64,000 nucleotides of DNA from Argopecten irradians (Eukaryota; Mollusca; Bivalvia; Pectinida; Pectinidae): assembly GCF_041381155.1 (NCBI RefSeq), contig NC_091136.1, forward strand, positions 47,792,284 to 47,856,283, written 5' to 3'. The notes under the pieces are model-generated. The model was not told where the DNA came from. It did no database searches and was given only the letters and a program-made list of their open reading frames with translations. Shown here piece after piece: positions 17,340-63,363 of the stretch (positions within the stretch are counted from its first letter, which is position 1; each line of letters begins with the position of its first letter). Position numbers and translations under genes: made by a program.

Positions 17340-20300
17340 GTAATCAAAGTTCATTGTTTTTTGAAAAATTGAAACGATAAACATGAAATAAAAAAAAAAT
17401 AAAAAAATAAAAAAAAGCTGATGTGCAGCGGTCAATTTTAGCAAGTTCTAGATGCTTCTTTTTCATTTCTCTGCAATGTGATGGCATTGGAATGTCTTCA
17501 TTTTCTGTGATAAAATGCTGGTCGGCAATCAATTTTTGCCATGTACCAGTTTTTGTCATCACATTGTGTATTTATAATTAAGGTAGACCGTCCCTTCTGG
17601 TTTCTTTTCAAGGATTTGTTCATTTTTTGATATTTTGATTTTAGGTATACCCTGATCACAAAAACCGCATAAAAATCATATGTTAATTTTTCTTCCAGAT
17701 TTGCTAAAAGATATGTACTAATGACTTAAAGATGCTCCACCGCTGACAAATGTTGTTTTTTCACTATCAAAAACGGGATCAGACAATTTGATATTTTTCT
17801 TCAGTACAAAAGTTACTTACTTCACACCAATACCACCATTGAAAAGTTTGAAGTTCTAAATATACTTCAAGTTAAAAATATAAAAAATAATTATTTGCAT
17901 CCCGAAAAAATTCCGTGGCACTATATCCTATATGGAATGAAGTATTGATTGCGCTTGCACCAAAGGCAAAAGAAATTATTTTATATTATTTTTTGTGTTA
18001 ATTAGACATATGTATACAAGATTAAACACCAACTATTGTTCAAATGAAGTATATCATTTATGCTCTGTCGGCGGTAGAGCATCTTTAATGTTCCCGATTT
18101 TAAGGATTTTTAAATAAATAATATTTCCTCCCTGTAACATCCCTTAACATACAAATAATATGCCTGTGACATGTTCATACCTTCAGTACGTGATTTAGAT
18201 AAAGAATTCATAACTATATCCAATAAGCTGTGTTTTCCGCAATAAAACGAAATATCGTTATTTTAAAATTAAATCCAGCCCAATTTTAGTGAAAAATTGC
18301 ATCAAAATAGTCATGTTTTCTTTTTTTCTGAAAAAAATGATCTCTAGAAAAATTGATTTTTTAGAAAATGTTTAAAAAAAATAGGCGAATCCGTAGCACT
18401 TTTTAACGTTTTATGTTATTCATTTGCCCTTGGTAGTTTTCTATATTTATTATATTATTGGAGCATACCAGATAACGCAATAATTACATATCTTGATGAT
18501 TTCATTTATTTATTATATAAAATATAATAAACCACTTTTCAAGCATATATATTATATATTGTGTAGGCCTTTATGACCTCAAACTTTCAAAAAGAGTCTA
18601 TATAGCTAGCTAATTCAGCAGGAAATATCAACTTTTTCTGAGACAAATAATTTGCTCTGTGTGATACTGTATTAAAATGGATTATTTTCCGTTATAGCAT
18701 CTTTCAAATTATAAGTAAAGATTTTAACAAAAAATAAAATGAAAATATTTTCCAGCAATTTTATTTCAGTATTTTGTTTGTCCGTTTCCGGACGAAATTA
18801 ATATACATGTACCGGTATTTTACGAAGAGTGCCTATTGAAGCTCGAAACTCAAATGTTTCCATTCAAAATACCACTAACTTCCTTCGTCATCCATATACT
18901 GTGTAAATTTATTTCTATTCTGCAAAAAGATAGGTATACAATTATAATGATAACGGTCATTCGTTTGTTACTACTGACGTGAAGTTTTACATTTTGGATC
19001 CCCGTAAATCCATGTGTATTCCATCTGATTGTTTAGCAACTATTATGATTCTTAGATTTTACTTTATTCATGAATCTTAAAAATTATACTATCAGTGATT
19101 TGCAGGACTCGCCTAGACGAGTGCTAGACTCATGATTTTCCTGTGGGACTCACCAAAATTTTGAGAACCCTCTATATTTCTTTGTATTAGGACTCATCAA
19201 AATTTGAAAATTAGTCTTCTGGACTGGCTATAAAAAATCCTACATAATTATAAATTGCTGCCTATATTTACCGATTGTCACACCTTTAGATTGATACACT
19301 TCAAGTAAACACTCGAAAAGGTTCTAGACGAAATACTTGCTTGAATGCCATTTCAGAAGCGAGTTGTAATAGATGGGTACGGAGAAATAAAATACGTTTG
19401 CCGGGATCCAGATAGCGATGTTACAAATGTATGACGTCACAGAAGGGACGGTCCACGTTAATTTATGATATATGCATGCAACATAAATTTTCAGATGTAA
19501 GTTTTTAGGTCATCTGACCCGAAGGGTCAGGATGACCTATAGTCATCATGTTTCGTCCGTCGTCGTGCGCCGTCCGCCGTGCGCCGCCGTCCGCCGTGCG
19601 CCGTCCGCCGTGCGTTAACTTTTCACATTTTGAACTTCTTCTCAAGTTTGACCAGTGGGATTGAGCTGAAACTTACCTGAAATGATCCTGAGATGGTCCC
19701 GACAAAGTATTGTTATTTTTCGGGTCGATCCGAAATCCAAGATGGCCGCCACAGCCGCCATCTTGAAAACACATTTTAAACTTCTTCTCAAGTTCTACCG
19801 GTGCGATTTGGCTGAAACTTGCATGAAATGATCCTGACATGGTCCCGACAAAGTGTTGTTATTTTTCGGGTCGATCCGAAATCCAAGATGGCCGCCACAG
19901 GCGCCATCTTGAAAACACATTTTGAACTTCTTCTCAGTTCTACCGGTGCGATTTGGCTGAAACTTGCATGAAATGATCCTGACATGGTCCCGACAAAGTG
20001 TTGTTATTTTTCGGGTCGATCCGAAATCCAAGATGGCCGCCACAGCCGCCATCTTGAAAACACATTTTGAACTTCTCAAGTTCTACCAGTGCGATTTGGC
20101 TGAAACTTGCATGAAATGATCCTGACATGGTCCCGACAAAGTGTTGTTATTTTTCGGGTCGATTTGAAATCCAAGATGGCAGCCACAGGCGCCATCTTGA
20201 AAACACATTTTGAACTTCTTCTCAAGTTCTACCAGTGCGATTTGGCTGAAACTTGCATGAAATGATCCTGACATGGTCCCGACAAAGTGTTGTTATTTTT

Positions 20301-63363: not shown

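Follow-up and report, generated by a model that had tools for sequence, protein, structure and literature searches.

Probable non-autonomous Helentrons with type-matched 5′ and 3′ ends in the genome of Argopecten irradians

The closest described counterparts of the elements reported here are the Cg_HINE elements of the oyster Crassostrea gigas. According to the accessible text of PMC7492417, these carry an 11-12 bp 5′ subterminal inverted repeat (subTIR), a complementary inverted repeat, a GTCC-type microsatellite and a satellite-like array, together with a 3′ subTIR and a palindrome, and they occupy T-rich targets without target duplication; Cg_HINE groups have flanks in common and different arrays. 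In Helitron2, as far as the available parts of PMC3627910 go, the 5′ hairpin is made with the 5′ repeat, the 3′ repeat lies just ahead of the 3′ hairpin and an algal family inserts after TTTT. The model proposed there has replication end with pairing between the 3′ and 5′ repeats, by which the 5′ hairpin is opened; the support offered in 2013 consists of compensatory changes in two related Culex Helitron2 elements. The available portions of PMC4067079 and PMC2374699 describe Helentrons and HINEs as having subTIRs, an inverted repeat or palindromic subTIR, a 3′ stem-loop and a partner encoding Rep, helicase and endonuclease. Compensatory changes in the DINE-1 3′ stem were inferred in 2008 (PMC2374699), and similar elements were formerly annotated as MITEs (PMC4067079). 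Helentrons with a herpes-tegument-like deubiquitinase have been described, in molluscs among others (PMC9741609). These sources have already published the class and its anatomy, the oyster counterparts, the compensatory changes and the pairing model.

The window, by which we mean the whole 64,000-nucleotide stretch analysed (C3:47792284-47856283 of the 846 Mb genome), holds six clear HINE-type elements plus a seventh that is decayed. A1, A2, A3, E and the decayed F have one type of end (A), B1 and B2 another (B). B2 and B1 lie head to tail on the minus strand, nested in A3. The features are as follows.

19502-20656, plus strand: A1, A-type HINE with a 146-bp tandem array (19624-20467) and two successive 3′ hairpins
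19507-19538, plus: 5′ hairpin of A1, arms 19507-19514 and 19531-19538 (AGGTCATC..GATGACCT)
20508-20526, plus: inner 3′ hairpin of A1, without inverted repeat
20638-20656, plus: outer 3′ hairpin of A1
20622-20656, plus: full 3′ end of A1, comprising inverted repeat GTCAGGTGACC (one change from the A type), hairpin and CTCTTGT
25178-25909, plus: A2, short complete A-type HINE, tandem array 25307-25791
25183-25214, plus: 5′ hairpin of A2 (AGGTCATC..GATGACCT)
25876-25909, plus: 3′ end of A2, comprising inverted repeat GTCAGATGACC, hairpin and CTCTTGT
39004-40319, plus: F, decayed A-type HINE, 5′ AGATCATCTGACC..GGATGACCT, array 39733-40202, 3′ remnant from 40285
44147-44164, minus: degenerate A-like 5′ end
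44354-49789, plus: A3, A-type HINE split by B1 and B2, 5′ arm AGGTCATG (one mismatch)
44974-45806, minus: B1, B-type HINE directly downstream of B2
45778-45806, minus: 5′ hairpin of B1 (AGCTCACC..GGTGAGCT)
44980-44992 and 44999-45008, minus: 3′ end of B1, hairpin and inverted repeat respectively
45808-48830, minus: B2, B-type HINE with a 157-bp tandem array
48801-48830, minus: 5′ hairpin of B2 (AGCTCACC..GGTGAGCT)
45814-45826 and 45833-45842, minus: 3′ end of B2, imperfect stem (GGCCC..GGGAC) and inverted repeat respectively
48914-48993, plus: internal repeat unit of A3, a paralogous empty site for the B pair
49756-49789, plus: 3′ end of A3, comprising inverted repeat, hairpin and CTCTTGT
50080-50111 (approximate bounds), minus: degenerate B-like 5′ end
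58614-61918, plus: E, A-type HINE with a 145-bp array (58667-61865), the second 5′ arm gone and the short palindrome AGGTCATCTGACCT in its place
61885-61918, plus: 3′ end of E, comprising inverted repeat, hairpin and CTCTTGT

Where both arms are kept, the 5′ end runs from a T-run through an 8-bp arm, an inner stem and the second arm to a GTCC-like microsatellite. At the 3′ end an inverted copy of the 5′ tip precedes a GGCCC..GGGCC hairpin and CTCTTGT. Reverse complementation of the respective 5′ tips gives exactly the 3′ motifs GTCAGATGACC and CCAGGTGAGC, as an earlier note on this DNA had stated, and its B stem is seen in both B elements on the minus strand. Other details required correction. 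The A outer stem begins with AGGTCATC at the first two of the three sites named for it but with AGGTCATG at the third. The 3′ hairpin and terminal TCTTGT are indeed shared by both types, although the B loop is 3 nt (TCT) and B2 has a damaged stem. The 3′ hairpin placed at 20509 is the inner one of A1 and not its full 3′ end. GTCAT with exact CGTCCGTCGTC follows the hairpin in A1, B1 and B2 but is degenerate or absent in the other window copies. Element F, the A-like 5′ end at 44164 (minus) and the B-like 5′ end near 50111 (minus) were missing from that list.

The counts of these motifs exceed chance: the window has four copies of GGCCCNNGGGCC, where 100 shuffles average 0.00, and CGTCCGTCGTC with at most one mismatch gives five matches (three overlapping in one place) against 0.06. 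As DNA, the five two-armed 5′ hairpins of the window have folding z scores of −5.2 to −7.4, and none of 200 shuffles was as good. Neither the truncated 5′ hairpin of E (58614; z −1.2) nor any of the three 3′ ends that we folded (z −0.1 to −1.6) is exceptional in stability. We note that two successive 3′ hairpins ~129 bp apart, the inner one without inverted repeat, mark an A subfamily seen in the window (20508-20656) and in two other stretches of the genome (L044 and L045).

The anatomy is that of Helentrons and HINEs. Subterminal inverted repeats are present at both ends (10-11 bp here vs ~11-15 bp in Helentrons/HINEs), a palindrome lies near the 3′ end past the 3′ repeat, and the core is a tandem repeat accompanied by a microsatellite. 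An inverted repeat complementary to the 5′ repeat is found in A1, A2, A3, B1 and B2, and the palindromic form in E and in stretch L048. The 5′ hairpin contains the 5′ repeat and insertion follows TTTT, as in Helitron2. Membership of the Helentron/HINE group, which the earlier note had proposed, is supported by this anatomy, by one empty site without duplication and by a Rep/helicase element with C-type ends (both below). The new superfamily suggested alongside it is not: these elements belong to the known Helentron/HINE (Helitron2) group, with oyster counterparts in the accessible text of PMC7492417. A canonical Helitron1 (5′ TC, 3′ CTRR, A/T insertion) was also considered and rejected, the ends here being TAG.. 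and CTTGT and the target TTTT|C.

The insertion site could be located with the internal repeat unit of A3, which serves as a paralogous empty site for the B pair. Aligned with the joined flanks (44929-44973 plus 48831-48866), this unit is 87.7% identical over 81 aligned positions. The empty unit reads AATTTTCCTTGAG; the filled site reads TATTTTT, both B elements, CATTGAG. At this one paralogous site, therefore, the B pair lies between TTTT and C without target duplication. Flank counts, which include duplicated loci, show the same T-rich preference: T occupies positions −5 to −1 before the 5′ ends in 32, 34, 27, 33 and 29 of 34 cases, and is the next base after CTTGT in 33 of 41 3′ ends. Since the TTTT target persists just before an element, serial insertion there fits head-to-tail neighbours and is their simplest explanation. 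The B2-B1 pair might instead be a single product of rolling-circle read-through. The two elements abut within one base, and the damaged B2 3′ stem (GGGAC) is what a weak terminator would look like. We nevertheless think read-through rather unlikely, because the end sequences of B1 and B2 differ and because unlike types abut in the same way: in the near-copies L001 and L004 a B element starts immediately where an A element stops, an arrangement that read-through of one element cannot yield.

Among stretches of the same genome we recognised a third type, C, with 5′ GGTCACCTGA and 3′ TCAGGTGACC. The exact 5′ motif occurs genome-wide 3,168 times for A, 2,216 for C and 4,218 for B (reversed controls 2, 5 and 1), the exact 3′ motif 3,441, 1,483 and 5,157 times respectively (reversed controls all 0). 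The pattern GGCCCNNGGGCCTCTTGT has 5,476 exact copies, about two dozen of them in one 48-bp array, and its reverse has none. Over 10 positions A and C differ at one, C and B at two and A and B at three, and C is by its sequence intermediate between A and B. At least 11 identical bp, the same-family rule for Helentrons in the available text of PMC4067079, are not shared among A, B and C, which by that rule are separate families of one group.

Two arrays of ends were seen on contig C1. At C1:9156996-9158228, minus strand (L030:997-2229), a 48-bp unit is repeated 25.7 times with 98% matches; the unit contains a complete C-like 3′ terminus, with repeat, hairpin and CTCTTGT, giving a satellite solely of a Helentron 3′ end. 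At C1:5414617-5431409 (in part L031) six A-type 3′ ends are spaced 3,354-3,357 bp apart, with B-type 5′ ends on the opposite strand at the same spacing, pointing to a tandem array of a composite unit.

The types of the two ends are strongly associated. In the first 13.67 Mb of C1, with 187 5′ and 182 3′ ends among the exact-motif matches listed, each 5′ end was assigned the nearest same-strand downstream 3′ end at 100-6,000 bp, and each 3′ end kept its nearest 5′ end only. Among the matches listed, 82 of the 89 resulting pairs are type-matched (A-A 23, C-C 11, B-B 48) and seven are not (C-B 3, A-B 2, C-A 1, B-A 1); in 10,000 label shuffles the number of matched pairs averaged 38 and never rose above 53. 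For A and C alone, over C1:0-22.8 Mb and again among the matches listed, 57 of 60 pairs match (Fisher p ~1e-12), leaving out the A 3′ end at C1:22798636, which would add one matching pair. These tests cover exact motifs, the first 100 matches listed for each, on one contig, with decayed copies and other contigs unrepresented, and both the shuffles and the Fisher test treat as independent copies that are not. Independent assortment of 5′ and 3′ types, which would have undone the earlier proposal, is thus not what is seen in this sample.

Pairs read base by base give the same picture. Of the 280 positions in 28 sequenced pairs, 266 are complementary; the match is perfect in 19 pairs, and none of 20,000 re-pairings scored as high. 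The nine imperfect pairs carry unmatched single changes in individual copies, A1 itself having one 5′/3′ mismatch. This table counts the three near-identical copies of L031 as one, takes in L040a without alignment and lies apart from L055 and L066-L069. It leaves out ends with insertions in a repeat (L004, the first pair of L032), those without a true 5′ end (L002, L003, L005, L007, L008, the second 3′ end of L032, the first 3′ end of L035) and those without a repeat (L034, the second end of L036), as well as the inner 3′ hairpins (window A1, L044, L045), the 48-bp array of L030 and the decayed window element F.

In the 5′ hairpin, too, the second arm fits its own type best. Ten of 23 A-type 5′ ends have a second arm that is 8/8 complementary to the A arm, none is 8/8 to the B or C arm, and 10 are 7/8 to the C arm; for B-type ends five of seven are 8/8 to the B arm, none to the others, and five are 7/8 to the C arm. 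Five of seven C-type ends reach 7/8 with the C arm and none does so with the A or B arm. Changes of the arm at family level have their counterpart in the hairpin partner, so that the stem changes are compensatory as claimed. However, no good second arm is present in 11 of the 23 A-type ends, where complementarity to the end's own arm stays below 7/8; several retain just the short palindrome AGGTCA-TC-TGACC. This counts against a strict need for the 5′ hairpin.

Of the seven mismatched pairs we read the five other than A/B (the two A/B pairs span 3.2 and 4.2 kb). In L066, at two places, and in L067 a C-type 5′ end and the C-like sequence next to it are followed by a B-type 3′ end with no other end between them; in the first L066 copy the intervening sequence resembles a B array by eye. 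L055 is perhaps a similar C/B chimera. L068 is an A element differing by one T-to-C substitution, and L069 has two B-like 5′ ends followed by an A 3′ end. The L066 and L067 chimeras keep 8 of 10 complementary positions, and the C and B types may cross-react. Because such chimeras exist, type matching is strong rather than strict.

The coding partner was sought through Helitron_like_N (PF14214), which has 104 matches in this genome and none in 14 control genomes. One Rep match, at C1:16387016, is flanked by C-type ends, 5′ at 16377931 and 3′ at 16393628; both ends were seen in the sequence of L050/L051, with no further end between them apart from one weak hairpin-like match without repeat (L050:4392). 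With frames kept as read and none joined, one of 1,482 aa matches Helitron_like_N (4e-27), PIF1 (1.3e-20) and, at E 0.0016 and 18.7 bits (below the Pfam cut-off of 24.5), Exo_endo_phos. Two frames upstream in L050 match Herpes_teg_N (3.7e-10) and DUF6570 (1.7e-23). The first 300 bp are 86.7% identical to the C-type HINE L040 and 82.0% to L006. This element, the sole Rep-bearing one with matched ends found, is likely a Helentron partner, with Rep, a PIF1 helicase and a weak match to an endonuclease.

The autonomous partner foreseen for these ends has accordingly a candidate for the C type; for A and B none was found beside 12 of the 104 Rep matches. There, 3.5 kb downstream, we found only four A- or B-like 3′ ends (A-like at L059; B-like at L053, L055 and L058), and upstream of two of those four loci, over 8 kb and 7 kb, no matched 5′ end. 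L053 has a B-like and L055 a C-like 5′ end nearby, L052 has an A-type 5′ end only, and the other seven of the 12 stretches have no A, B or C end. HINE array sequence lies close to the Rep matches in L053, L058 and L059, and we note that HINE tails can pass for the ends of a coding element.

We give a probability of roughly 90% to the following reading: the window elements are non-autonomous Helentrons (HINEs, Helitron2 group) with matched ends, moved by a rolling-circle process whose Rep/helicase/endonuclease comes from elsewhere. The 5′ hairpin would mark the start of the strand and, past the satellite-like array, the 3′ inverted repeat, the 3′ hairpin and CTCTTGT its end. As the round closes, pairing between the 3′ and 5′ repeats would open the 5′ hairpin as in the published model, and a change in either repeat would thus require a matching change in its counterpart. 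Joining of the cut strand would take place just after TTTT. We infer the pairing step, the cleavage and the protein that moves the A and B types. At the level of sequence, the data agree with the published pairing model in that the positions which differ between types are matched at both ends.

Non-coding elements of this size with inverted repeats could also be cut-and-paste MITEs with tandem-repeat cores, and the available text of PMC4067079 records that their kin were once annotated so. The inverted repeats are asymmetric and subterminal, however, the one empty site lacks the target duplication of a MITE and a Rep/helicase element has C-type ends, leaving this explanation very improbable indeed. 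Within the Helentron reading, the match of the ends could be inherited history only, each type having arisen once with matching ends and no continuing selection. Type matching is expected from descent as well as from selection. There are just three end types, about three substitutions apart, and the unmatched changes in nine of 28 pairs and the 11 A-type ends with poor second arms would suit such a history. The covariation claimed at three sites amounts to about three family-level substitutions in thousands of related copies and not to many independent events. On the other side, the type differences fall at complementary positions of the 5′ tip and the 3′ repeat, and for two of the three the 5′ partner arm differs as well, whereas the neighbouring GTTAA and GATAC differ without any partner change. 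History alone is possible in our view, though doubtful.

At the opposite extreme, matched ends could be a strict specificity code by which each type is recognised by its own transposase alone. The 82 of 89 concordant pairs among the matches listed and the C-type ends of the Rep-bearing element favour it; the C-type 5′ and B-type 3′ ends of L066 (two places), L067 and perhaps L055 do not, and we judge it improbable. In its strict form, the co-evolving code of the earlier note is weakened by these chimeras. Complementarity may instead act as a graded mating rule, in which types split in a matched manner (A to C to B), near-matches (C with B, 8/10) can be combined by one transposase and new families arise through chimeras followed by compensation; we offer this only as a speculative extension of the Helentron reading.

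Elsewhere in the window, the open frame at 16251-17372 (plus), read by eye, presumably starts with a MYND-type zinc finger and ends in a prolyl hydroxylase-like (EGLN-like) domain. Broken frames at 2187-5369, 6772-7796 and 9242-9976 (plus) we take, also by eye, to be non-LTR retrotransposon endonuclease/reverse transcriptase-like. An Rfam tRNA match at 56318-56390 (minus; 33.1 bits, gathering score 29) was not called by ARAGORN. Further tandem arrays, in which HINE ends were not recognised, lie at 26988-28447 (58-bp unit), 33049-33513 (70-bp) and 53140-53350 (37-bp).

In the open-access literature we did not find these exact ends, a comparably large type-matching test, a C-like intermediate or C/B chimeras; a search of main texts, supplements lying outside it, by motif (GTCAGATGACC/GGTCATCTGAC, GGCCTCTTGT and similar) gave, among the papers listed, none on transposons to judge by title. 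In viral contigs the pattern AAGGCCCN{2,4}GGGCCTCTTGT marks 21 stretches. Judged by eye over the 40 bases before the hairpin, only L025 is A/B-like, and it was rejected as a viral copy, being phage-like with no 5′ end; the other 20 are taken as chance, terminator-like matches.

For genome annotation the locus is an ordinary HINE case that also supplies dispersed satellite-like arrays. Its value lies in offering a larger natural test of a published idea: with thousands of copies, three related types, chimeras and a candidate partner, end pairing becomes testable by statistics and experiment. The window elements have the same layout as Cg_HINE; genome-wide type matching is not reported in the accessible text of PMC7492417. 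Compared with the Helentrons, HINEs and DINE-1 of the available text of PMC4067079, the inverted-repeat form and the short palindromic form here occur within one family. The Herpes_teg_N match upstream of Rep in L050 recalls the Helentrons of PMC9741609, as far as its accessible text goes, but here it is a separate, putative open frame. Asymmetric terminal inverted repeats of Helitron2 are represented by two elements in the available parts of PMC3627910, and here by three types with many copies and chimeras between them.
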